Shown piece by piece: positions 2,532-24,332 of a DNA stretch of 48,958 nt. Origin of the DNA: Chloroflexota bacterium. GTDB taxonomy: Bacteria > Chloroflexota > Limnocylindria > P2-11E. Where the stretch lies: the NCBI GenBank assembly GCA_028876375.1, contig JAGWSB010000008.1, positions 1 through 48,958 on the forward strand. The letters run 5' to 3'. The notes below the pieces were generated by a model. The model was not told the origin of the DNA. It did not search any database and saw nothing but the letters and a program-made list of their open reading frames with translations. Both the position numbers and the translations under genes were made by a program. Position 1 is the first letter of the stretch. Each line of letters opens with the position of its first letter.

Positions 2532-3257
2532 TCAGGGCCGGGTCCGCGCCACCTCCGCGGCGGAGCGCTGCGCCGCGAGCTCCATCGCGTCGTCGAGCGG
2601 CTCCAGCCGGACGGCGTCATGGCGGCGCTCGAGCGCCCAGAGCAGAAGCATGTCCGCGAGCCACGGGTTCTTCGGCAGGACCGAGCCGTGGCAGTACGTC
2701 CCGACGATCCGCCCCTGGACCGCGCCTTCGGTCTTGTCCTGGCCGTTGTTCCCGTGCCCGACGATGACGCGCGCCAGCGGGCGCGCCGCGGGGCCGAGGT
2801 AGGTGTAGCCGGAGTGGTTCTCGAAGCCGATGAGCGTCCCCTGCGGCGCCTCGGCGAGCAGGTTGCCGACGAAGCGGACCTTACCCGCGCGTGTCGTCAC
2901 GTCGAGCGCCCCAAGGCCGGCGATCGACGGACCTTCGGCGGGGACGTACTCGCGTCCGAGGAGCTGGTACCCGCCGCAGACGGAGAGCACGGCTGCGCCC
3001 GACGCGAGCGCGCGCCGCAGCGCGGCGCCGTTCGGTCCCTGGAGGTCACGGGAGACCACGTCCTGCCCGAGGTCCTGTCCGCCGCCGAAGAAATAGAGGT
3101 CGGCCCACTCGGGTTCGAGCGCCTCGCCCTCGTGCAGCTCGCGCACCTCGGCGTCGATCCCGCGCCAGCGGGCGCGCTGCGTGAGAGCGATGACGTTCCC
3201 ACGGTCGCCGTAGATGCACATGAGGTCGGGATAGATGTGGCAGACGCGCAGGTCCAC
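2532..3257 (-). CDS. gatD: Lipid II isoglutaminyl synthase, glutamine amidotransferase subunit GatD
   Basis: 241 residues, the family's usual size. GatD releases ammonia from glutamine; partner MurT uses it to amidate D-iso-glutamate of the lipid II stem peptide. The class I (CobB/CobQ-like) amidotransferase fold is visible: N-terminal VCHIYPDLMCIYGDRGN motif, nucleophile Cys in SVCGGYQLLG (about 92-101), then the catalytic His in YCHGSVLPKNPW. MurT is encoded upstream on the same strand with a small gene between. The GTG start at 3257 is preceded by TAGGAT ending six bases before it, so this gene may also have its own leaderless promoter. Confidence 0.93.
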   Translation of the reverse strand: MDLRVCHIYPDLMCIYGDRGNVIALTQRARWRGIDAEVRELHEGEALEPEWADLYFFGGGQDLGQDVVSRDLQGPNGAALRRALASGAAVLSVCGGYQLLGREYVPAEGPSIAGLGALDVTTRAGKVRFVGNLLAEAPQGTLIGFENHSGYTYLGPAARPLARVIVGHGNNGQDKTEGAVQGRIVGTYCHGSVLPKNPWLADMLLLWALERRHDAVRLEPLDDAMELAAQRSAAEVARTRP

Positions 3258-3263
3258 GGACCG

Positions 3264-3269
3264 ATCCTA
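3264..3269 (-). promoter_or_regulatory. Candidate -10 box for gatD (leaderless)
   Basis: TAGGAT reads on the minus strand and ends six bases before the GTG start of gatD. A transcription start about seven bases downstream would fall on the start codon. No recognisable -35 was found. It fits a pattern seen at eleven other genes here. Confidence 0.4.
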
Positions 3270-3286
3270 TCGGCCGCGCGGGAGGG

Positions 3287-3490
3287 TCAGTCGCCCGGCT
3301 GCGTGTACCCCATGCGGATCTCGGACATCCACTCCTCGAGGACGATGCCGAGCGGATCCGTCGGACGGCGACCGACCTTCGAGACGTGGCGCGTGCGCGG
3401 CGGTTCCGGCAGCGGGCGCGCGACCCAGTGGTGACCGACGAAGAGGATGCGGGGATCGTGCCGCGGGAGGTCGCGGTGGAGCTGCTTCAT
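3287..3490 (-). CDS. Small protein of unknown function between murT and gatD
   Basis: 67 residues starting MKQLHRDLPRHDPRI and ending SEIRMGYTQPGD. I do not recognise the family. It looks genuinely coding: nearly every codon ends in G or C, like its neighbours, and it fills the 289-base gap between murT and gatD in the same direction. It is basic in the middle (PRTRHVSKVGRRP) with an acidic, amphipathic end (VLEEWMSEIR). There is no signal peptide or membrane segment. The position suggests co-expression with the amidation enzymes, but no function can be given. There is no clear ribosome binding site, only a weak AGG about 15 bases upstream. Confidence 0.5.
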   Translation of the reverse strand: MKQLHRDLPRHDPRILFVGHHWVARPLPEPPRTRHVSKVGRRPTDPLGIVLEEWMSEIRMGYTQPGD

Positions 3491-3546
3491 CGCGCGACAC
3501 ACTGGGACCTGGAGCGGCGGCGCACAACGGGCCGATCGGCCCTCGC

Positions 3547-4923
3547 TCAGTCCTCCCAGAAGCGGCCGACATAGCCCATGTCGCTGAGCGCGCCGCGCAG
3601 GGCCAGCATGGCCGTGTAGGTCGTGAGGACGGTGACCTCGCCGCCCGGCGCGGCCATGTCGATCGCATGTCGGAGCGCCTCGCGCCAACCGTCCACGACC
3701 TCCAGGTCGGCGGCGCGCACGCCCGCGTACTTGAGGCGCAGCGCGAGGTCGCGGGCGCGCAGGCCGGTCACGACGGCGCGCTCGACCGCCGGCGCGAGAG
3801 CCTCGAAGTCGGCGTCCCAGATCCACGAGACGTCGCGCCCGTCGGCGTCGCGGTCGTTGAGCGCCGCGAGGATGCGGTGCCGTCCGCCGCGCTCGAGGAG
3901 CGCGCCGATCGCGGCGTTGAAGCCGGCGGGGTTCTTCACGAGGACGATGCGAAGGCGACGGCCGTCGGCCTCGACGACCTCGAGGCGTCCGAAAGGCGGG
4001 CGGAACGCGGCGAGCGCGCGGCCGACGGTGGCGTCGTCGATGGCGAGGGCGCGCGCGACGGCGACGGCGGCGAGCGCGTTGTACGCGTTGTACAGGCCGC
4101 CGAGCGGGACCTCGACGAGCGCGCCGGCGCCGGTCAGCTCCAGCCGCGTCCGGTCCGGCGCGAGCACGACGCGGGCGGCGGCCACGTCGCGCGCGGGACG
4201 CGCGAGGCCGCACGCGGGACAGCGCCAGTCGCCGACGTGGGCGAGGACGACGCGCGTGTACGCGAGACGCGCGCCGCAGCGCGGGCAGTGGGTCGCGTCG
4301 CTGATGCTCTGGGGGACCTTCCCGCCGACGGAGGCGTCGTCGATCCCGAAGAAGAGGACAGGGCCCGCGTGGCGCTCCCCCAGGCGGGCCACGAGCGGGT
4401 CGTCGGCGTTGAGGACGAGCGTCGTCGCGGCCGGGAGGCGTGCGAACGCGTCCGCGATGCGCCGCGCCAGCTGGTCGACCTCGAAGTAGCGGTCGAGCTG
4501 GTCGCGGAAGAGGTTGGTGACGAGGACGACGCGGGGCTCGAGGCGCGCGACGACCCGAGGGATCGACGCCTCGTCGACCTCGAAGATGCCGACGTCGCCG
4601 CGCGGACGGCCGGCGGCGTCCGCGTCGGCCAGGAGAGCCGCGGCGATACCGCGCTCGAGGTTGGAGCCGGTGCGGTTGTGCACCGGCGTCCGACCCGCGG
4701 AGCGCGCGATCTCCGCGAGCATCCGCGACGTCGTCGTCTTGCCGTTCGTCCCCGAGACGAGGACGGCGCCGTGCGCCAGGCGCGCCGAGAGGTGGCCGAT
4801 GAGATCGGGGTCGACGGCGAGAGTGACGAGCCCGGGGAGGGCGGTCCCGCCGCGGCCCAGCGCGTGGAGGCCGGCGCGCGCGACCTTGCCGGCGCCGACC
4901 GCGGCGATGGTGCGGAGGGTCAT
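3547..4923 (-). CDS. murT: Lipid II isoglutaminyl synthase, Mur ligase subunit MurT
   Basis: 458 residues. MurT activates the D-glutamate alpha-carboxyl of lipid II with ATP and, with ammonia from GatD, makes D-isoglutamine. The Mur ligase P-loop GTNGKTTTSRM lies near 58-68. A four-cysteine zinc ribbon typical of MurT is inserted in the central domain (HCPRCGARL, then WRCPACGL). The C-terminal DUF1727-type domain contains LNDRDADGRDVSWIWD, with the aspartate implicated in catalysis. The ATG at 4923 is preceded by TACGCT seven bases upstream, a probable leaderless start. The merR gene ends only 37 bases before it, so both read-through and separate transcription are possible. Confidence 0.93.
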   Translation of the reverse strand: MTLRTIAAVGAGKVARAGLHALGRGGTALPGLVTLAVDPDLIGHLSARLAHGAVLVSGTNGKTTTSRMLAEIARSAGRTPVHNRTGSNLERGIAAALLADADAAGRPRGDVGIFEVDEASIPRVVARLEPRVVLVTNLFRDQLDRYFEVDQLARRIADAFARLPAATTLVLNADDPLVARLGERHAGPVLFFGIDDASVGGKVPQSISDATHCPRCGARLAYTRVVLAHVGDWRCPACGLARPARDVAAARVVLAPDRTRLELTGAGALVEVPLGGLYNAYNALAAVAVARALAIDDATVGRALAAFRPPFGRLEVVEADGRRLRIVLVKNPAGFNAAIGALLERGGRHRILAALNDRDADGRDVSWIWDADFEALAPAVERAVVTGLRARDLALRLKYAGVRAADLEVVDGWREALRHAIDMAAPGGEVTVLTTYTAMLALRGALSDMGYVGRFWED

Positions 4924-5652: not shown

Positions 5653-5937
5653 TCAGCGCTTGGCGGCGGGGGCGAGAGGCACGCGATAAGCGACCTTGAC
5701 CGCGGCGCGGTACTGCCGGATGCCGCCGCGCGCGTCGAGCTCGGCCCACAGGCGCGACACCTCGGCGACGACGGGTCGCGGAGCGGTGTCCTTGGCGTCG
5801 CGGACGGCGCTCGTGACCGCGTCGGCCCAGCCGCGGCGGGACGATCCGGTGACCTCGACGGTGCGTACGGCGGCGGGCGCCGCCTTAGCGCGACTTGGCC
5901 GGGAAGCCCTCGAGGCCGTACTCCTTGATCTTGGCAT
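5653..5937 (-). CDS. Dodecin-like small flavoprotein
   Basis: 94 residues; the conserved part begins near residue 24. It follows the dodecin pattern: VEVTGSSRRGWADAVTSAV corresponds to the first strand, the Gly-Ser-Ser turn, the flavin-stacking tryptophan and the helix. The ending LDARGGIRQYRAAVKVAYRV corresponds to the last two strands. Dodecins form hollow 12-mers that bind riboflavin, FMN or CoA and buffer free flavin. The only standard start in frame is ATG 5937, which puts the first 53 bases inside the end of the sigma-54 activator gene. That gives an odd basic N-terminal extension (PRSRSTASRASRPSRAK). A rare start nearer 5880 would give a standard-sized dodecin. Confidence 0.72.
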   Translation of the reverse strand: MPRSRSTASRASRPSRAKAAPAAVRTVEVTGSSRRGWADAVTSAVRDAKDTAPRPVVAEVSRLWAELDARGGIRQYRAAVKVAYRVPLAPAAKR

Positions 5938-7273
5938 AGAGGAGCCGACGATAGATCCCCAGCATCTCCGCCGCCTTCGAACGATTCCCGCCGGCGTCGC
6001 GCAGCGCCTTCATGATCAGGTCCTTCTCGAACTGAGCGACGGACTTCTTGAAGAAGGAGCGCTCGCTCGGGACCTCGTCCCCCTCTTCCTCGCGGTCGCC
6101 CTCGTGGTCGCCGAAGGGGAGCTCGCGGCTGGTGATGATCTGACCGCGCGACAGGACGACGGCGCGCTCGATCACGTTCTCGAGCTCGCGGACGTTGCCC
6201 GGCCAGTCGTACTCGAGGAGCCGGCGCAGCGCCTCCTCGCTGATGGCGGCGGGCTGCGCGGTCGCGCTGTAGCGGTGCTTGGCGAGGAAGTGCTCGACGA
6301 GCGCGGGGATGTCCTCCTTGCGGTCGCGGAGCGGCGGCATGGGGATGTTGATGACGTTGAGGCGGTAGAAGAGGTCGTCGCGGAACTTCGCCTGCTCGAC
6401 CTGCTTCTGCAGGTCCTTGTTCGTCGCGCAGATGACGCGGATGTCCACCTTGATGGGCAGCGACGACCCGAGACGCTCGATCTTGCGGTCCTGCAGGACG
6501 CGGAGGAGCTTCGTCTGCGTCTGCAGGCTCATCTCGCCGATCTCGTCGAGGAAGATCGTTCCCTTGTCGGCGAGCTCGAAGCGGCCGCGTCGCTGCGTCA
6601 GCGCACCGGTGAACGAACCCTTCTCGTGTCCGAACAGCTCCGCCTCGAGGAGGGTCTCCGGGAGGGCCGCGCACGACACCTTCACGAGAGGACCCGCGCG
6701 CCGGCTCGAGTTGTAGTGGAGCGCCTCCGCGACGAGCTCCTTGCCGGTGCCGGACTCTCCGGTGATGAGCACGGTCGCGTCCGCTTTCGCGACCTTGCCG
6801 ATCGTCTTGTAGACCTCCTGCATCGGCGGCGAGTTGCCGACGATGCGCTCGGTCTGGACGAGCGAGGAGATCTCGCCGCGCAGGACCTCGACCTCCTGGG
6901 CGAGATCCTGATACTCGAAGACCTTCCCGACGGTGTGATTGATCTTGTCGAGCTCGAACGGCTTCGTCACGTAGTCGAAGGCGCCGAGCTCCATCGCGCG
7001 GATCGCCGCGTTCGAGCTCCCGAAAGCCGTCATGATCAGGACGGCCGTCCGCGGGGACGCCCCCTTCACGCGCGAGAGCGCCTCGATGCCGTCGAGCTCG
7101 GGCATGCGGACGTCCATGATCACGAGGTCGGGGCTCGCCTCTTTGACCTTGTCCACCACCTCGACGCCCGTCGCCGCCTCCTGGACGGCGTAGCCCTCGT
7201 CCTGGAGGAGCTGCCGCAGGAGCGCCCGGATGGAGGCGTCGTCGTCCGCGACGAGGATGGTCTTCTGGCCCAT
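5885..7273 (-). CDS. NtrC-family sigma-54-dependent response regulator
   Basis: 462 residues, full length. Receiver domain 1-120: acidic pocket DD at 10-11, phospho-acceptor Asp54 in IMDVRMP, Lys104. AAA+ domain about 143-380: Walker A GESGTGKE 172-179; sigma-54 contact loop GSFTGA 219-224 (the common form is GAFTGA); Walker B TIFLDEIGEM; WPGNVRELENVIERA. A Fis-type helix-turn-helix is at the end (about 425-455, GNRSKAAEMLGIYRRLLYAKI). Phosphorylation by a partner histidine kinase, absent from this window, would drive oligomerisation and open sigma-54 promoters. The neighbours do not reveal its targets, but sigma-54-like elements lie at 16518 and 24318. Confidence 0.93.
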   Translation of the reverse strand: MGQKTILVADDDASIRALLRQLLQDEGYAVQEAATGVEVVDKVKEASPDLVIMDVRMPELDGIEALSRVKGASPRTAVLIMTAFGSSNAAIRAMELGAFDYVTKPFELDKINHTVGKVFEYQDLAQEVEVLRGEISSLVQTERIVGNSPPMQEVYKTIGKVAKADATVLITGESGTGKELVAEALHYNSSRRAGPLVKVSCAALPETLLEAELFGHEKGSFTGALTQRRGRFELADKGTIFLDEIGEMSLQTQTKLLRVLQDRKIERLGSSLPIKVDIRVICATNKDLQKQVEQAKFRDDLFYRLNVINIPMPPLRDRKEDIPALVEHFLAKHRYSATAQPAAISEEALRRLLEYDWPGNVRELENVIERAVVLSRGQIITSRELPFGDHEGDREEEGDEVPSERSFFKKSVAQFEKDLIMKALRDAGGNRSKAAEMLGIYRRLLYAKIKEYGLEGFPAKSR

Positions 7274-15975: not shown

Positions 15976-16509
15976 ATGGCCGTCCTAGACGCGAATGTGC
16001 TCGTTCTCAACAGCGACTACCGTCCGCTGAACGTCTGCAACGTCCGGCGTGCCGTCGTACTGCTCGAGAAGCAGAAAGCACAGACCGTCGAGCTCGACGG
16101 CGCCGTCGTCCGCAGCGAGCGCCGCTCGCTCCGCGCGCCGTCCGTCATCCGGCTCGCGTACCACGTGAAGCGTCCGCGGCCGGTCGTGAAGCTCACGCGA
16201 CGCGAGATCCTGGCGCGCGACGACCACCAGTGCCAGTACTGCGGCAAGCGAGGGAACGACCTCACGATCGATCACGTGATCCCTCGCCATCGCGGCGGCC
16301 AGCACACGTGGGAGAACGTCGTCGCCGCGTGCAAATCGTGCAATCACAAGAAGGGCGGGCGCACGGTCTCCGAAGCCCACATGACGCTTCTCGTACAGCC
16401 GTTCAGGCCCCCGGCCACGCCGCGCTACCTTTTCTCCTCGTACATTCGGTCAGGGGAGCGCACGTGGCTCAAGTTCCTCGGGGTGGACGAGACCGCAGCG
16501 GCGTCCTAG
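15976..16509 (+). CDS. HNH endonuclease family protein
   Basis: 177 residues from ATG 15976. The N-terminus VLVLNSDYRPLNVCNVRRAV is conserved in a widespread group of single-domain bacterial HNH proteins. The nuclease core is clear: CQYCGKRGNDLTIDHVIPRH, then GGQHTWENVVAACKSCNHKK. These give the two CxxC zinc pairs and the DH-N-H metal site (residues about 91-135). Members of this group are usually chromosomal and not part of restriction modules; their role is undefined. It diverges from pdxS. The longer open frame from 15118 is a shadow of pdxS. Confidence 0.9.
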   Translation: MAVLDANVLVLNSDYRPLNVCNVRRAVVLLEKQKAQTVELDGAVVRSERRSLRAPSVIRLAYHVKRPRPVVKLTRREILARDDHQCQYCGKRGNDLTIDHVIPRHRGGQHTWENVVAACKSCNHKKGGRTVSEAHMTLLVQPFRPPATPRYLFSSYIRSGERTWLKFLGVDETAAAS

Positions 16510-16517
16510 CGGAGGCC

Positions 16518-16532
16518 TGGCACTGCCCTTGC
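16518..16532 (+). promoter_or_regulatory. Perfect sigma-54 -24/-12 promoter element before the glycosyltransferase pair
   Basis: TGGCAC (16518-16523), five bases, TTGC (16529-16532) matches the TGGCAC-N5-TTGC consensus exactly. It lies in the 37-base gap after the HNH gene. Transcription would start near 16544, three bases before ATG 16547. No TANNNT box is present at this gene. Confidence 0.65.
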
Positions 16533-16546
16533 GTTCGGTCGCGCGG

Positions 16547-17743
16547 ATGAAAGTCCTGTTCGTCAAGCGCGGGTACGCGCCCATCGGCGGATCGGAGAGC
16601 CTCTGCTTCCACTTCGCGACGCGGCTGGCGGCGCGCGGACACGACGTGAGGGTCGTCTGCGCGTGGCCGAGCGAGCGAGAGCACGCGAAGTGGCAGCTCG
16701 ACCAGGTCGGCGCCGACGTGTTCGACGACCACCGGGTCTTCATGCATCGCGGCGTCGAGGTCGTGCAGGTGAAGCCGCGCGGCGGGATCTTCGGCCTCGC
16801 GGCCGACGCCACGACGCTCGTCGACCTCATGCGCGGCGATGTCCTCGAGCGGTACGCCGCGGACCGCGACCTCATCCACAACGTCGGCCGGGAGTACCTC
16901 GACTCGTCGCTCGACGTCGCGGAAGAGCTCGACATCCCGATCGTTCTCACGCCGCTCGCGCATCCCGGCCAGTTCCACGGCGGCGACTCGCGCGCCGACC
17001 TCGCGCGCTACCGGCGCGCCTCGGCGATCACCACGATGACGGGATGGGAGCGGGACTGGTACGTGCGCCACGCGATCGAACCGTCGCGCCTCGTCGTCAC
17101 CGGTATGGGCGCGAACGCGATGCGCTCGTCCGACGGCCCGGCGTTCCGCGCCGCCCACGGGATCCCTGCCGACGCGCCGCTCGTCCTCTACATCGGACGC
17201 AAGGAGCGGTACAAGGGCTACATCCAGCTGCTCGACGCGGCGGAGTCGGTCTGGCGGCGGCACCCCGATACGCGGTTCGTCTTCATCGGGATCGACGGCT
17301 TCTATTCGACGTTCATCGACGACTTCGCGCGGTACCGCGACGATCGGATCATCGACATCGAGTGCGCGTCGGATCCGGTCAAGGCGTCGGCGCTCGACGC
17401 CTGCGACGTCTTCGCCATGCCGTCGCGGCACGAGACGTTCGGGCTCGGATACATCGAGGCGTGGCTGCACGAGCGTCCCGTCATCGGAGGCGACATACCG
17501 CCGCTGCGCGAGGTGATCGACCACGGCGTCGACGGGCTCCTCGTGCGGCAGCGCGCGAGCGAGGTGGCGGGGGCCATCGTGCAGCTGCTGGACGATCCGG
17601 CGCTGCGCGCCGCGATGGGCGCGGCCGGCCGGGCGAAGGCGGCCGAACGTTGGGACTGGGCGCGCGTCATCGACCGCGTGGCGGGGGCGTACCAGCTCGC
17701 GATGTCGGGCTTCGAGGTGAGCGGGTCCGTCGCGCTCGCCTGA
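16547..17743 (+). CDS. GT4-family glycosyltransferase (first of a tandem pair)
   Basis: 398 residues from ATG 16547. It has the two-Rossmann GT-B fold: N-terminal MKVLFVKRGYAPIGGSE with the acceptor-side glycine loop, linker LVLYIGRKERYKGYIQLLDA with the phosphate-binding Arg/Lys, and the E-x7-E donor motif HETFGLGYIEAW. GD(I)PPLREVIDHGVDGLLV is also typical. It transfers a sugar from an NDP-sugar, probably at the cytoplasmic membrane face; donor and acceptor are unknown. The next gene is a close relative, giving a tandem duplication. An upstream ATG at 16529 would place six extra residues across the sigma-54 element, so 16547 is preferred. Confidence 0.87.
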   Translation: MKVLFVKRGYAPIGGSESLCFHFATRLAARGHDVRVVCAWPSEREHAKWQLDQVGADVFDDHRVFMHRGVEVVQVKPRGGIFGLAADATTLVDLMRGDVLERYAADRDLIHNVGREYLDSSLDVAEELDIPIVLTPLAHPGQFHGGDSRADLARYRRASAITTMTGWERDWYVRHAIEPSRLVVTGMGANAMRSSDGPAFRAAHGIPADAPLVLYIGRKERYKGYIQLLDAAESVWRRHPDTRFVFIGIDGFYSTFIDDFARYRDDRIIDIECASDPVKASALDACDVFAMPSRHETFGLGYIEAWLHERPVIGGDIPPLREVIDHGVDGLLVRQRASEVAGAIVQLLDDPALRAAMGAAGRAKAAERWDWARVIDRVAGAYQLAMSGFEVSGSVALA

Positions 17744-17750
17744 CGCGACG

Positions 17751-18869
17751 TTGAAGGTCGCCATCGCGAAGAAGCTCCTGTCGTCCGTGGGCGGATCCGA
17801 GCTGCAGGCTCGTCTTCTCGCGCGGGCGCTGGCGGCGCGCGGCCACGACGTCCTCCTCGTCGGCATGCGTCCGGCGTGGCCCCGGCCGGGGATCCCCGAC
17901 CGCGCGGTGCTTCGCGGCGGCGGTGGGACGGTGCGCGATGAGGCCGACGGCGTCGCGTTCGCGTACATCGCCGCGCGCGGAGGCCGTGCCGGCGCGGCGG
18001 TCGACGGCCTTTTCCCCACGGATCTCGCGGACGAGAGCGCGCTCACCACGGCGCTCAGGGGGCGCGACGTCGTGCACGTCATCGCGCGCGAGTGGGCGGG
18101 CTCGTACGAGAGGGCCGCGCGCCGCGCCGGCGGCGCCGTCGTCGAGACGCCGCTCGTCCATCCCGGACAGCCGTTCTCCGGCGCGGCCGGTGCGGACGTC
18201 GCGCGCTACCGGCGCGACGACGCGGTGATCGCGCTCACCGAGTGGGAGGCGGGGTGGTACCGGGAGCGTGGCGTCGAGCGCGTGCGCGTGACCGGCGTCG
18301 GTCCCGTCATCGGCGACGTCCCGTGCGTCGATGCCGACGCGGCGACGATCCTCTTCGTCGGGCGCAAGGAGCGATACAAGGGGTATCACGCGCTGCGCGC
18401 CGCGGCGCCGCTGGTATGGCGCGAGCGGCCCGACGCGCGCTTCGTCGCGATCGGGCAGCGCGCCTGGCGCGATCGGCCCGTCGCCGTCGACCCGCGCTGG
18501 ATCGACCTCGGAGTCGTCGACGAGGCGGCCAAGACGGAGGCGTACGCGCGCGCGACCGTCCTCGTCATGCCGAGCGAGCACGAGACGTTCGGCCATACGT
18601 ACCTCGAGGCCTGGGCGGCCGGTCGTCCGGTGATCGCCGGCGACATCCCGCCGCTGCGCGAGGTCGTGCGTGACGGCGTCGATGGGCTGCACGCGCGGAA
18701 CGACCCCGTGGAGGTCGCGCGCGCCATCCTGCGGATCCTCGGCGACCCCGCCGCGGCGCGGCGCATGGGCGAAGCGGGAAGGGAGCGGCTGCGCGAGCGC
18801 TGGACGTGGGAGAGGATCGCCGAGCGGACCGAGAAGGTCTACGAGGAGGCGGTCGCGCGCGGGGCCTGA
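17751..18869 (+). CDS. GT4-family glycosyltransferase (second of a tandem pair)
   Basis: 372 residues from a TTG at 17751, seven bases after the first glycosyltransferase. It shares many blocks with that protein: LLSSVGGSELQARL at the N-terminus, ILFVGRKERYKGYHALRAA, SEHETFGHTYLEAW (E-x7-E), and AGDIPPLREVVRDGVDGL. The pair arose by duplication and has diverged in the N-terminal acceptor domain, so the two may add successive sugars to one glycan. Transcription is probably shared with the first gene from the sigma-54-like element at 16518. Donor and acceptor are unknown. Confidence 0.86.
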   Translation: MKVAIAKKLLSSVGGSELQARLLARALAARGHDVLLVGMRPAWPRPGIPDRAVLRGGGGTVRDEADGVAFAYIAARGGRAGAAVDGLFPTDLADESALTTALRGRDVVHVIAREWAGSYERAARRAGGAVVETPLVHPGQPFSGAAGADVARYRRDDAVIALTEWEAGWYRERGVERVRVTGVGPVIGDVPCVDADAATILFVGRKERYKGYHALRAAAPLVWRERPDARFVAIGQRAWRDRPVAVDPRWIDLGVVDEAAKTEAYARATVLVMPSEHETFGHTYLEAWAAGRPVIAGDIPPLREVVRDGVDGLHARNDPVEVARAILRILGDPAAARRMGEAGRERLRERWTWERIAERTEKVYEEAVARGA

Positions 18870-18887
18870 TCGCCCACGCTCATCGGC

Positions 18888-18893
18888 TACCTT
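18888..18893 (+). promoter_or_regulatory. Candidate -10 box for holB-PSP1
   Basis: TACCTT, ten bases before ATG 18904 and four before the alternative GTG 18898, in the 34-base gap after the glycosyltransferases. Confidence 0.3.
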
Positions 18894-18903
18894 TGACGTG
18901 CGC

Positions 18904-19905
18904 ATGAGGGACGTCATCGGTCACCGACGCTTGCTCGACCGCCTCGGGGGCCACGCCGTCCGCGGCGACGTCGCTCACGCGTACGGGATCTTCGGGCCGC
19001 GCTCCATCGGCAAGAGGACGGTCGCGCTGCGGCTGGCGCAGACGCTCGAGTGCGAGACGTCCACTGCGGGCGGGTGCGGGACCTGTCTCGCGTGCCGGAA
19101 GGTCGAGCGCGGGGTCCACCCCGACGTGCGCCTCGTCACGCGGGCGGGCGACCGCAAGCTCATCGGCATCGAGCAGATCCGGGAGATGCAGCAAGACCTC
19201 GCGCTGCGCCCGCTCGAGGGCCGCCGCCGCGTCGTGATCGTCGACGACGCGAGCGAGCTCGACCAGGGTCAGGACGCGCTCCTCAAGACCCTCGAGGAGC
19301 CGCCGGACCATGCCGTCCTCCTTCTCGTCACGACGACGCCCGCGGCGCTCCACGAGACGATCCTGTCGCGCCTCCAGCCGCTCACGTTGCGCCTCGTTCC
19401 CGTAGCCGAGATCGAAGAGGGCCTCGCCGCGCGCGGCATCCGCGAGGCGAGCCGCTTCGCGGCGGCGTCGGCGGGACGGCCGGGGATCGCGATCGCGCTC
19501 GCGAGCGGCGACGGCATCCGCGCCGAGCGCGAGCGCGTCGAAGCGGAGCTGTACCGCCTCGTCGGCAGCGGCCTCACCGACCGCTTCGCCTGGGCGGCCG
19601 ACCTCGCCGACGAGAGCGATCCGCGCCGCCGTGCCGACGCCATCGACCTTCGCCTCGCGCACTGGTCGGAGCTGCTGCGCGACGCGACCGTCGCGGCGCG
19701 CGGCGAGCTGTCGCGGCCGCTGCGGCCGGCGCGTCTCGCCGAGACGCGGCGGCTCGCGACGAGCGTGAGCGCGGACGAGCTCCTCGGCGCGACGCTGCTC
19801 GTCGAGAGGCTGCGGCGCGATCTCGGGTTCAACGCGAACGCGCGCGCCATGCTCGAGCTCTTCGCCCTGCGGCTCCCCTACTCGCAGACGATGAGGGCCG
19901 CGTGA
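18904..19905 (+). CDS. holB: DNA polymerase III subunit delta'-like clamp-loader protein
   Basis: 333 residues from ATG 18904 (GTG 18898 also possible). It starts RDVIGHRRLLDRLGGHAV, the usual delta' opening, followed by a P-loop-like GPRSIGKRTVALRLAQ. A zinc cysteine cluster follows (GGCGTCLACRKVERGVHPDV), then RRRVVIVDDASELDQGQDALLKTLEEPP and LSRLQPLTLRLVP. Delta' is a stator of the clamp loader that opens the sliding clamp. The P-loop has Lys but an atypical Arg after it, which fits a non-hydrolysing subunit. The PSP1 gene overlaps by four bases, the usual holB-yaaT pairing. Confidence 0.85.
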   Translation: MRDVIGHRRLLDRLGGHAVRGDVAHAYGIFGPRSIGKRTVALRLAQTLECETSTAGGCGTCLACRKVERGVHPDVRLVTRAGDRKLIGIEQIREMQQDLALRPLEGRRRVVIVDDASELDQGQDALLKTLEEPPDHAVLLLVTTTPAALHETILSRLQPLTLRLVPVAEIEEGLAARGIREASRFAAASAGRPGIAIALASGDGIRAERERVEAELYRLVGSGLTDRFAWAADLADESDPRRRADAIDLRLAHWSELLRDATVAARGELSRPLRPARLAETRRLATSVSADELLGATLLVERLRRDLGFNANARAMLELFALRLPYSQTMRAA

Positions 19906-20882
19906 GCGCTCCCGCTCGCGTGGTCGTCGGCGCGCGCGTCCAGCAGGCCGGGCGCATGTACTTCTTCGAGCCCGGCGACGTGCGCGACCTCGCGGTCGGC
20001 GACGTGGTCATCGTCGAGACGGCGCTCGGGCTCGACGCGGCGCGCGTCCATCTCCTGCCGACCGATTCGCCGCTCGTCCAGGTCGACGCGCCGCTCGGCC
20101 GCGTCGTGCGGCGCGCGACCGCGACCGACAAGTTCCTCCTGGCGCGGCACGAGCGACTGGAGGAGGACGCGCGCCGCATCGCGGCGGAGATGGCGACGAT
20201 GCGCGACCTTCCCATCCGCATCCTCGGCTGCGACTGGAGCTTCGACGGCTCGGCGCTCACGGTCTTCTACGCGTCGAACGAGCGCCTCGACCTCGCCGCG
20301 TACGCCGACGAGCTCGGCACGCGCTTCTCGACGCACGTCGACCTGCGCCGGATGGGAGCGCGGGACGAGACGAAGGTGACGGGCGGCGTCGGCACGTGCG
20401 GACGCGAGCTCTGCTGCGCGACGTGGCTCGACCGCTTCTCGAATATCTCCATCCGCATGGCGAAGGAGCAGGATCTGCCGCTCAACCTCAGCAAGCTCAC
20501 GGGAGTGTGCGGCCGCCTCAAGTGCTGCCTCATCTACGAGCTCGAGACCTATCAGGAGGTCAAGGGGAAGCTGCCGAAGGAGGGCGACGTCTTCCACATG
20601 CCGTCGTGCGTCGGCGGCCAGTGCGGCACCGCCGGCTGCGCGCAGGTGCAGGGGACGAACGTCCCGAAGGAGGCGGTCGTCGTCGGCTTGGCCGACGGCG
20701 GTCGCGGTCAGGTCACCGCCGAGGAGCTCGGCGTCGTGTTCGACCCCGTTCCCGCGCACACCAAGGGCGTCGGCTCGTACGGCGCGGACGAGATCCCGCG
20801 GCAGGAGCGCGCGACCGCGGCGCCGGGGGAGCCGGGCGCGGGCGGACAGCGCCGGCGTCGCCGGCGGCGGGGTCGCCGCTAG
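19902..20882 (+). CDS. PSP1 domain protein (YaaT/RicT-like)
   Basis: 326 residues from a GTG that overlaps the holB stop (GTGA). The PSP1 core is complete: VQQAGRMYFFEPGDVRDLAV, IRILGCDWSFDGSALTVFYA, RMGARDETKVTGGVGTCGRE. The cysteine-rich motifs GTCGRELCCATWL and LTGVCGRLKCCLIYE follow. In Bacillus the homologue RicT binds iron-sulfur clusters with RicA and RicF and steers RNase Y and phosphorelays. No ricA or ricF is seen here. Two extra cysteines in CVGGQCGTAGC are present. The basic C-terminal tail (RRRRRRRGRR) is unusual and may bind RNA. The downstream polyprenyl synthase gene is convergent, three bases away. Confidence 0.92.
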   Translation: MSAPARVVVGARVQQAGRMYFFEPGDVRDLAVGDVVIVETALGLDAARVHLLPTDSPLVQVDAPLGRVVRRATATDKFLLARHERLEEDARRIAAEMATMRDLPIRILGCDWSFDGSALTVFYASNERLDLAAYADELGTRFSTHVDLRRMGARDETKVTGGVGTCGRELCCATWLDRFSNISIRMAKEQDLPLNLSKLTGVCGRLKCCLIYELETYQEVKGKLPKEGDVFHMPSCVGGQCGTAGCAQVQGTNVPKEAVVVGLADGGRGQVTAEELGVVFDPVPAHTKGVGSYGADEIPRQERATAAPGEPGAGGQRRRRRRRGRR

Positions 20883-20885
20883 AGG

Positions 20886-21863
20886 TCAGCGCTGCCGGCG
20901 GAGGATGAAGTCGGCGATCTCGCGCAGCGCCTCGCGCTCGGGACGGTCCGGAAGACGATCGAGCGCCGCTATCGCCTCGTCGTGGAACGCCTGCGCCCGA
21001 GCGCGTGCGCGCTCGATCCCGCCGGACGAGCGGATCGTCGCGATGAGGTCGCGCAGCTCCTCCGGGCCCTTGTCCAGCGCGAGGATCCGCGAGGCGAGCG
21101 CGGCCCCGTCGGCGTCCGCCTCCACGGCGTAGATCATCGGCAGCGTCGGCATGCCTTCGGCGAGGTCGCGGCCGACCTCCTTGCCGAGCGACTCCGATCC
21201 GCCGATGAGGTCGAGGACGTCGTCCGTGATCTGGAAGGAGAGCCCGACGCTGGTCCCGTACGCGCCGAGAGCGGCGACGTGCTCGGGCTCGGCGTCGGCG
21301 AGGAGCGCGGCGCCCTGGCAGCACGCGGCGTAGAGCGAGGCGGTCTTGAGCTCGATGCGCTCGAGGTACTGCGCCTCGGACGGCATCGCCGGGACCGAGG
21401 CGACCTCGGTCAGCTCTCCGTCGCACAGGGCGAACACGGTGTGCGCGACCATCGCGATGACCTCCGGCTTCGGGAGGACGGCCGCGAGGGCGTAGGCCTT
21501 CGCGAACAGGTAGTCGCCGACGATGAGCGCGACGTCGTCGTTCCACACCGCGTTCACCGTGGGTACGTTCCGCCGCAGGTCGGCGCTGTCGACGATGTCG
21601 TCGTGCACGAGCGACGCGGTGTGGACGAGCTCGAGCGACTCGGCGAGGTCGACGATGACGCCGCTCCGCGCGCCGGGGCCGAACCGCGCGGCGAGGAACA
21701 CGAGCGTCGGCCGGAGGAGCTTCCCCGGCGACCCGAAGAGGTGCGCCGCGGCGGCGGCGAAGGTGGGGTGAGCGCCGCGGCCGACGTCGCGCAGGCGCCG
21801 CTCCAGCTCCGCGAGGTCGTTCTCGACGAGCGCGTAGAAGCGCTGGCGCTGGGCGATGGTCAC
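20886..21863 (-). CDS. Polyprenyl diphosphate synthase (trans, heptaprenyl/octaprenyl type)
   Basis: 325 residues. It condenses isopentenyl diphosphate units onto an allylic primer to make a long prenyl chain for menaquinone or ubiquinone. GKLLRPTLVFLAARF is the first substrate-binding block. The first aspartate-rich motif is DDIVDSADLRR; the second is LSFQITDDVLDLIG. Lys in KTASLYAACC is also conserved. Small residues before the first motif (LVHTASLVH) suggest a long product. The GTG start at 21863 follows the PBP gene on the same strand; TAACCT ten bases before it may give an independent leaderless start. Confidence 0.92.
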   Translation of the reverse strand: MTIAQRQRFYALVENDLAELERRLRDVGRGAHPTFAAAAAHLFGSPGKLLRPTLVFLAARFGPGARSGVIVDLAESLELVHTASLVHDDIVDSADLRRNVPTVNAVWNDDVALIVGDYLFAKAYALAAVLPKPEVIAMVAHTVFALCDGELTEVASVPAMPSEAQYLERIELKTASLYAACCQGAALLADAEPEHVAALGAYGTSVGLSFQITDDVLDLIGGSESLGKEVGRDLAEGMPTLPMIYAVEADADGAALASRILALDKGPEELRDLIATIRSSGGIERARARAQAFHDEAIAALDRLPDRPEREALREIADFILRRQR

Positions 21864-21873
21864 GGCGCCGTCG

Positions 21874-21879
21874 AGGTTA
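21874..21879 (-). promoter_or_regulatory. Candidate -10 box for the polyprenyl synthase
   Basis: TAACCT on the minus strand, ten bases before GTG 21863. It overlaps the TAA that closes the alternative proline-rich frame after the PBP gene. Confidence 0.3.
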
Positions 21880-21926
21880 GGGCTTCTTGCTGGGCGGCGG
21901 GGGTGGCGTCGGCGTCGGTGCCGGCG

Positions 21927-24302
21927 CTAGGGATGGCGATGCCGGGGCGCCGCTGGGCTGGGAAGAGGAAAAGGGCTCGGGGATCCTCCCGGCGACGCCG
22001 AGGGCTTCGGCGTGGGCGAGGGACCGAACCCCGGCGGGATCGTGGCGAACGCGCCCGCGACATAGCAGTACCCCATCCGCCCGCCCGAGAGCGAGGAATG
22101 GCCCGCGACCCACGCGTTGACGTAGCCCTGCCAATCCGTGAACGGCGAGATGACGCGGTAGCAGCCGTTGATCATGACCGCGCGGTCGTCGGTCGTCGGC
22201 TCGGTCCCCTTCACGAAGACCTCGTCCTTGCGCCAGCTCGCGGGGCAGCCCGGACCCGGCAGGAGGCCCGATCCGTTCCCGCCGCGGAGCGCCGGGTTCT
22301 CGCACACCGTCACGTGGACGACGTTCGGCGGCGCCTGGTACCAGACGGGCGGCAGCCCGCCCACGACCTTGCTCATGTAGTCGCGCCAGAGCACGCCCGG
22401 ACCGAGGGCCGACGAGATCCCGTACATCTGCGAGTTGTCGGCGTTGCCCATCCAGATGCCCGTGAGTCGCTGCGGCGTGAAGCCGATGGCCCACACGTCC
22501 TGCAGGTTGTCGGTAGTGCCCGTCTTCAGCCCGGCCGGCCGTCCGATGCTCGTCCAGGGACCGAAGATCCACGAGCCGTTGGGGTCGGTGTTGTCCTTGA
22601 GGATGCTGTCGAAGACGTACGCGATCCCGGGGTCGAGGACCTGCTTGCCCTCGGGCTTGGTGTAGTCCTTCACGACCTTCCCGTGCGGGTCGACGATCTT
22701 CGAGATGAAGGTCGGTTCGACGCGCGTCCCGAGGTCCGCGACGACCTGGTACGCGCTCACCATGTCCAGCAGCCGGAGCTCACCCGCGCCGATCGCGAAC
22801 GAGAGCCCGTACCGGGACGGGTCGCCCCAGTCGCGGCGGATCCCCAGCTGGGACACCATGTCCATGATCTTGGGGACGCCGACCATGCGCCCGACGTTGA
22901 TGGCCGGCAAGTTCAGCGACTCGCGCAGCGCCTGGCGCATGCTCACCGGCCCGTTCTGCGGCGACCAGCCACCGATCTGCGGCGCGTCCTTCGGACACCA
23001 CTTGCTGCCGCTGCCGTCCGGCATGCAGAAGTCGATGTCGTCGAGCATCGACGCGGCGGTGAGATGCGCATCCTGCATCCCCGCGAGGTAGGTGAAGATC
23101 TTGAACGTCGAGCCCGGCTGCCGGTAGGCGATCCCGGCGGAGTCGTAGTCGCCCTGCACCTGCGGCGAGTGGTCGCCGTAGTCGACGCTGCCGACGTACG
23201 CGAGGATCTCTCCCGTCGTCGGATCCATCGTGATGAGCGCGCCGTTGTGCATGTTCGTGTAGTTGAGGCCCTTGACGTGGCTCTGGAGCTCCTGCGTGGC
23301 GAGATCCTGCATGTTCCAGTCGAGGGAGCTGTACACGGTGTAACCGCCCTCGTACGTACCGCGCTCGCCGTAGAGCGACACGAGCTGGTCGCGGACCTTG
23401 TAGACGAACCACGGCGCGGCGATCGGCGTCGCGACGGGCTGGACCTTGATCGGCTCCTGCTTCGCCGCCGCCGCCTGCGCCGCCGTGACGTAGCCGTTGT
23501 CGACCATGGAGTCGAGGACCTCGGTGCGGCGCGCCTGCGCGGTCGCGAGGTCGCGGACCGGGTCGTACTTGGAGGGCGCCTGCGGCAAGCCGGCGAGGAG
23601 GGCCATCTGTCCGAGCGTGAGCTTGGAGAGGTCCGTGACGCCGAAGTACGTGAGCGCCGCCGCCTTGACCCCGTACGACTGGTTCCCGTAGTAGACCTGG
23701 TTCAGGTACATCTCGAGGATCTGCTGCTTGCTGTAGATCCGCCCGGCCTGCAGCGCGAGGATGGCCTCCTTGATCTTCCGCGTGAACGTCGGAGCGTCGC
23801 CGACGAGCCGCTGCTTGATGAGCTGCTGCGTGATCGTCGACCCGCCCTCCTGGATGCCATGGCTGGTGAGGTCGGTCTGCGCCGCGCGGACGATGCCACC
23901 GACGTCGATCCCCGGGTTCGACCAGAAGGTCTTGTCCTCGATGGAGACGGTCGCGTCCTGCATGAGCTTGGGGACCTGGTCGAGGCCCACCAGCTCGCGC
24001 CGCTGATCCTCGAGGCGATAGAGGAGGTGCTGGCCGCTGCGGTCGTAGATGAGCGTCGACAGCGGCATCGGCGCGGTCGAGAGGTCGTCGATGGCCGGGA
24101 GGTCGGACGTGAAGAAGCTGATCGCGCTCGCCGCGGCCGTGCCGGCGAAGAGCGCGAACAGCGCGACGAAGATGCCGAGGGCGCCGGCCAGGGTGCCGAC
24201 ACGGCTCACGCCGACGCTCGGCCGCCGGCTGAGGCGTCCGTCGTGGTGGGGAAAGCGATACGCCCGGTAGCGCCCGGGCATGATCCCGCGGCCCTTCGCC
24301 AT
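21927..24302 (-). CDS. Class A penicillin-binding protein (glycosyltransferase-transpeptidase)
   Basis: 791 residues. A short cytoplasmic start is followed by one membrane helix (about 36-60). GT51 domain: catalytic Glu in SIEDKTFWSNPGIDV, then GGSTITQQLIKQRL and RKIKEAILALQ. Transpeptidase domain: PGSTFKIFTY (SxxK), RESLNLPAIN (SxN) and GLKTGTTDN (KTG). It polymerises and crosslinks peptidoglycan outside the membrane. The C-terminus is a proline/serine tail. In another frame the tail continues to 21877 (SSSQPSGAPASP and so on) after a CCCTTTTCC run, so the true end may be frameshifted. The upstream region has a sigma-54-like element and no TANNNT box. Confidence 0.94.
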   Translation of the reverse strand: MAKGRGIMPGRYRAYRFPHHDGRLSRRPSVGVSRVGTLAGALGIFVALFALFAGTAAASAISFFTSDLPAIDDLSTAPMPLSTLIYDRSGQHLLYRLEDQRRELVGLDQVPKLMQDATVSIEDKTFWSNPGIDVGGIVRAAQTDLTSHGIQEGGSTITQQLIKQRLVGDAPTFTRKIKEAILALQAGRIYSKQQILEMYLNQVYYGNQSYGVKAAALTYFGVTDLSKLTLGQMALLAGLPQAPSKYDPVRDLATAQARRTEVLDSMVDNGYVTAAQAAAAKQEPIKVQPVATPIAAPWFVYKVRDQLVSLYGERGTYEGGYTVYSSLDWNMQDLATQELQSHVKGLNYTNMHNGALITMDPTTGEILAYVGSVDYGDHSPQVQGDYDSAGIAYRQPGSTFKIFTYLAGMQDAHLTAASMLDDIDFCMPDGSGSKWCPKDAPQIGGWSPQNGPVSMRQALRESLNLPAINVGRMVGVPKIMDMVSQLGIRRDWGDPSRYGLSFAIGAGELRLLDMVSAYQVVADLGTRVEPTFISKIVDPHGKVVKDYTKPEGKQVLDPGIAYVFDSILKDNTDPNGSWIFGPWTSIGRPAGLKTGTTDNLQDVWAIGFTPQRLTGIWMGNADNSQMYGISSALGPGVLWRDYMSKVVGGLPPVWYQAPPNVVHVTVCENPALRGGNGSGLLPGPGCPASWRKDEVFVKGTEPTTDDRAVMINGCYRVISPFTDWQGYVNAWVAGHSSLSGGRMGYCYVAGAFATIPPGFGPSPTPKPSASPGGSPSPFPLPSPAAPRHRHP

Positions 24303-24317
24303 ACGCGCGCCCCGGAT

Positions 24318-24332
24318 GCACGCGCTGTGCCA
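24318..24332 (-). promoter_or_regulatory. Sigma-54-like -24/-12 element before the PBP gene (one mismatch)
   Basis: Minus strand: TGGCAC (24327-24332), five bases, GTGC (24318-24321). The -24 half is perfect and the -12 half has one mismatch to TTGC. Transcription would start near 24306, four bases before ATG 24302, the same geometry as at 16518. It is fully intergenic. Confidence 0.4.

Follow-up and report, generated by a model that had tools for sequence, protein, structure and literature searches.

Sigma-54 (RpoN) is in most cases associated with nitrogen, flagella, pili or the cell surface, with several activators driving it. The families CsbD, YtxH, KGG, DJ-1 and Ku are linked to general stress regulons, those controlled by sigma-B, sigma-S and EcfG. 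One-activator sigma-54 systems have been described in Chlamydia (CtcC) and Borrelia (PMC3162934, PMC7482065), and leaderless promoters with a TANNNT box are known in high-G+C bacteria (PMC3160421). Chloroflexota go unmentioned in a 2025 survey of sigma-54 regulons (PMC12316311), and a non-exhaustive literature search turned up neither a leaderless sigma-54 regulon nor a description of sigma-54 acting as a general-stress factor in this phylum.

Here, we analyzed a 48,958-nucleotide stretch of Chloroflexota DNA (the window) from a 2.6 Mb genome of 134 contigs and approximately 71% G+C, together with genomes of the same family and class. By most features examined, the system is an RpoN regulon of the classical kind, served by an NtrC-type activator: it shares with canonical regulons that use NtrC-type enhancer-binding proteins the -24/-12 consensus, a strict spacing, a complete RpoN and a REC-AAA-HTH activator with the GSFTGA motif. 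It differs from them in its single activator, its stress-gene content, the placement of the start codon 12 to 19 nt downstream of the -12 box at the majority of putative promoters, and in that an enhancer motif was not found in 79 upstream regions. A single RpoN paired with a single response-regulator-type activator is also the arrangement in Chlamydia and Borrelia; however, the activator here keeps a DNA-binding HTH that CtcC lacks, and the bacteria are free-living environmental ones with different genes and no adjacent kinase seen. As at TANNNT leaderless promoters, the candidate promoter directly adjoins the start codon and a Shine-Dalgarno sequence is missing; TANNNT boxes occur in this genome too, but those are sigma-70-type -10 boxes, whereas the abutting element here is of the sigma-54 -24/-12 type. 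With the sigma-B, sigma-S and EcfG regulons, the system has the families CsbD, YtxH, KGG, DJ-1 and Ku in common, although it would use another class of sigma factor that depends on an ATP-driven activator, and its putative stress role is read from gene families.

Two -24/-12 elements and their conservation

The features of the window that bear on this comparison are the following:

5885 to 7273, minus strand: NtrC-type response regulator P0001 (REC, sigma-54 AAA+ and Fis-type HTH domains); the genome has no other strong sigma-54 activator
16518 to 16532, plus strand: -24/-12 element of the glycosyltransferase (GT) operon, TGGCAC-N5-TTGC (TGGCACTGCCCTTGC), a perfect match; within two mismatches in 23 of 28 family genomes
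16547 to 17743, plus strand: glycosyltransferase family 4 gene (398 aa), first of the GT pair; orthologs in 28 of 28 family genomes
17751 to 18869, plus strand: second glycosyltransferase, 41-44% identical to the first and starting 7 bp downstream of it
21927 to 24302, minus strand: class A penicillin-binding protein (PBP; 791 aa) with transglycosylase and transpeptidase domains
24318 to 24332, minus strand: -24/-12 element of the PBP gene, TGGCAC-N5-GTGC (TGGCACAGCGCGTGC), one mismatch (GTGC for TTGC); within two mismatches in 21 of 22 orthologs

The GT element lies in the gap that separates the stop codon of an HNH gene (15976-16509) from the GT start codon, an ATG at 16547; the two GT genes probably form one operon. 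The PBP element is likewise intergenic, upstream of the PBP ATG (24302, minus strand). The distance from element to ATG is 14 nt for GT and 15 nt for PBP; if the C of the -12 GC is numbered -12, transcription is predicted to start at 16544 and 24306, which is 3 and 4 nt 5' of the respective ATGs. Neither a TANNNT box nor a Shine-Dalgarno sequence was found in the sequence upstream of either gene, while TANNNT occurs at -12 to -16 in six other window genes. The original prediction had named these two elements as one perfect and one single-mismatch intergenic site, placed the starts 3-4 bases before the ATG and contrasted both genes with those carrying TANNNT; the positions proved exact, and the predicted geometry and the contrast were reproduced.

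One reading takes such matches as products of chance in a G+C-rich genome. The window holds 2 matches against 1.2 expected, a number reached in 29 of 100 shuffles and thus not above chance, and the 46 sites with at most one mismatch found genome-wide fall below the count of a reversed-pattern control. Motif counts alone, in the window or the genome, are not significant, and we used them as evidence neither for nor against promoter function; as we read the sequences, the significance of both window elements comes only from their conservation in relatives. There, the 23 genomes with a GT element compare with 0.6 expected and a maximum of 4 in 1000 simulations, and the 21 orthologs with a PBP element compare with 0.6 expected and a simulation maximum of 5. 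The sole ortholog scored without a PBP element has TGGCACGACCCGTGC and was missed through a misplaced start codon (L084). Judged by this conservation, which is far above simulation in nearly all family genomes, chance is refuted for both window sites and as an overall explanation is extremely unlikely; it does hold for some other matches, such as those in coding sequence.

The form of the elements in relatives is that of the sigma-54 consensus, with GG and GC 10 bp apart. Before the GT gene, TGGCAC-N5-TTGC is retained while the middle bases and flanks vary; before the PBP gene, the form is TGGCAC-N5-(G/C)TGC, again with variable middle bases. The GT element departs from the usual -24 box in genus g2 (TAGCAC, an exception to the consensus) and in genus g3 (CGGCAG), although the PBP element is intact in both genera, and the GT promoter may therefore be weaker there. 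In genus g2 (L044-L053), the TAGCAC box overlaps the TAG stop of the preceding HNH gene, such that stop codon and candidate promoter are fused. Altogether, conservation across family genera before orthologous genes, with rpoN present, supports the predicted sigma-54 nature of both elements.

RpoN and a single activator

Absence of rpoN would have spoken against the original prediction, but this check did not refute it: the genome encodes one complete rpoN, with the AID, core-binding (CBD) and DNA-binding (DBD) Pfam domains all present. In genome G000, RpoN (P0006) also carries a zinc-ribbon-like insertion, CPLCGG...CVRC, at approximately residues 53-69 between the activator-interacting and core-binding domains. 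Autoregulation of rpoN was considered and rejected: a TGGCATGCGGCCTGC sequence found 17 nt upstream of rpoN in G000 has similar counterparts in G022 and G017, but it is absent from the other genomes. What is conserved before rpoN in most genera (L280-L300) is TAAGGTAGCC, a TAAGGT box of the TANNNT -10 type directly 5' of the start codon, which by its sequence is a housekeeping leaderless promoter. Since the region upstream of rpoN yields this box and no conserved -24/-12 element, the conservation method discriminates between the two types.

The sigma-54 activator predicted at 5885-7273 is borne out by its domains (REC, Sigma54_activat at 245 bits and HTH_8) and by GSFTGA in the sigma-54 contact loop. 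In a survey of the class, such an activator was detected in 33 of 177 genomes, with exactly one per genome in 33 of 33. The kinase of P0001 is probably unlinked: no histidine kinase adjoins it among the Pfam-scanned window neighbors, and none was apparent by eye near the activator in relatives, whose neighborhoods were not Pfam-scanned. The enhancer sites that were to be looked for according to the original prediction did not emerge, as no palindrome or k-mer was enriched above background in the 79 upstream regions.

The surroundings of the activator gene are envelope-related, with MurT- and GATase-like genes at 2532-4923 (minus strand) that also follow the activator in relatives. In two genomes of family f5 (L411, 3822-4334; L377, 4300-4959), a correctly shaped site lies approximately 2 kb beyond the activator gene; the gene behind the L411 site is of the YGGT family, and in the family of the window, too, YGGT genes are found after such sites.

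Several genomes lack parts of the system. In two genus g7 genomes (66% and 76% complete), the GT gene has no element, and rpoN and a strong activator were likewise not detected, a pattern suggestive of joint loss. One genome of the window's genus (G019, 90% complete) has the activator, but neither an rpoN hit nor a GT element nor a close PBP ortholog was obtained, possibly reflecting an assembly gap or a decaying regulon. In G022 (95% complete), rpoN and sites are present without an activator; its contig begins approximately 3 kb before the GT gene, and a contig break is the likely cause.

Spacing, start codons and predicted leaders

A search for further -24/-12 sites had been suggested, and it uncovered a larger putative regulon. 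We scanned seven genomes from three families (G000, G001, G015, G022, G154, G170 and G176) for TGGCAY-N6-TGC and then read the surrounding DNA. In G001, there were 39 correctly spaced sites against 11 with one base more. A coding-like start codon lay 12-19 nt downstream of 61 of 291 correctly spaced sites, whereas at nine other spacings this held for 2 of 124 (p=2e-8); since the DNA examined was taken mostly around correctly spaced sites, this comparison is one of rate per site and not of site number. The 61 include orthologs of both window genes and comprise 46 different proteins after removal of near-duplicates. The distribution of start-codon distances shows a sharp rise at 12-13 nt, the point at which a sigma-54 transcript is expected to begin; many sites had no linked start codon. 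Very short predicted leaders are, on this sequence evidence, a general feature of the regulon.

If the start site is set by the -12 element, a short spacer leaves no room in the mRNA for a Shine-Dalgarno sequence, and genes with long spacers should have one. With start codons chosen without using the Shine-Dalgarno sequence, one was found at its usual position in 28 of the 35 genes whose spacer measured at least 27 nt, but in only 3 of 42 genes with a spacer of 12-19 nt (p=2.6e-11). This rule is the strongest indirect evidence for the elements as core promoters, and it fits many of the mRNAs being leaderless, including those of the two window genes.

The same observations bear on whether the conserved elements are ordinary transcription-factor sites instead of core promoters. 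The PBP element, GCAC-N5-GTGC, is nearly palindromic in most genomes, as a factor site might be; however, the GT and other elements are non-palindromic and their spacing is strict. Binding of an ordinary factor predicts neither the abrupt appearance of start codons at 12-13 nt nor the Shine-Dalgarno rule, and rpoN and an activator are both present, which leaves this reading very improbable and sigma-54 core promoters the preferred one.

Among the scanned matches, the recurrent TGGCACATCGAGTGC was rejected as a promoter, being coding and part of a cysteinyl-tRNA synthetase-like motif recognized by eye, as was one TGGCACGCGCGCTGC match inside a mutase-like gene. In G154, which belongs to the same order but to a different family, eight TGGCAYN6TGC sites occur within 9 kb around a glycosyltransferase and a RibD-type gene (L332, G154:C133, 7046-16012), possibly a regulon island.

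Envelope and stress families in the putative regulon

A Pfam scan of 50 proteins encoded downstream of sites returned CsbD, KGG, Ku, YtxH, DUF5670, DUF308, PRC, DUF2382, BON, hemerythrin, DUF2935, DJ-1/PfpI, DNA topoisomerase IB, a mechanosensitive-channel domain, GvpL/GvpF and YGGT. Uracil-DNA glycosylase, alpha-amylase-type enzymes, several response regulators and further GTs were also among them. Putative members that recur in distant genomes are Ku, CsbD, KGG, YtxH, YGGT, GT and PBP. By comparison, 0 of 30 randomly chosen neighboring genes belonged to those stress families, the nearest being one AhpC-type, one glutaredoxin-like and one PCMT protein; the stress grouping was made post hoc, with the list already seen. 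Read from these gene families, the content points to a general-stress role for the regulon.

Sigma-54 had originally been proposed to control cell-exterior genes here. This theme holds for the GT and PBP operons but is probably too narrow, as many putative members are of general-stress type. One could still take the promoters as genuine and the regulon as essentially one of the cell exterior, with stress-type genes minor or present by chance. An exterior theme is established for sigma-54 generally (PMC3162934), and the best-conserved members include the GT pair, another GT, the PBP and several small membrane proteins. Yet genes for CsbD, KGG, Ku, YtxH, PRC, DUF2382, DJ-1 and hemerythrin are found repeatedly behind correctly placed sites, across three families, and Ku, KGG and CsbD fall outside the exterior category; we consider an essentially exterior regulon improbable and favor one that combines envelope and stress genes.

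From the elements, their conservation and spacing, the RpoN and the single activator, all of which are established directly, we infer promoter use, start sites, phosphorylation, an inducing signal and a general-stress role as follows. Both elements would be -24/-12 promoters for RNA polymerase carrying the genome's single RpoN, and both would be opened through ATP hydrolysis by the response regulator at 5885-7273, probably after its phosphorylation by an unlinked kinase. They would belong to a regulon that spans no fewer than two orders within a single Chloroflexota class and in which most promoters are predicted to start transcription approximately 1-8 nt 5' of the start codon and thereby yield leaderless mRNAs, with the remainder giving a longer leader that contains a Shine-Dalgarno sequence. 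Such a regulon would couple envelope renewal (the GT pair, another GT and the class A PBP) with general-stress proteins. Taken as a whole, this explanation, with genuine sigma-54 promoters, one RpoN, one activator and a largely leaderless stress and envelope regulon, is one that we hold with good confidence.

Because of the regulon's envelope and general-stress content, sigma-54 probably takes over part of the work done elsewhere by sigma-B, sigma-S or EcfG. To the bolder claim, that a single RpoN with its single response-regulator activator is the master switch for both envelope remodeling and the general stress response in the class, acting mostly through leaderless mRNAs, we give an even chance; sigma-54 would then perform a task known otherwise only for factors of the sigma-70 family. 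The spacer rule (12-19 nt without a Shine-Dalgarno sequence, at least 27 nt with one) yields a start-site prediction for each individual gene, one that is open to checking in metatranscriptomes without a cultured strain. If the explanation is true, a compact one-activator sigma-54 system feeding leaderless stress mRNAs in environmental Chloroflexota would represent a different use of sigma-54, in which an ATP-gated promoter is coupled to ribosomes that initiate at a 5'-terminal start codon.
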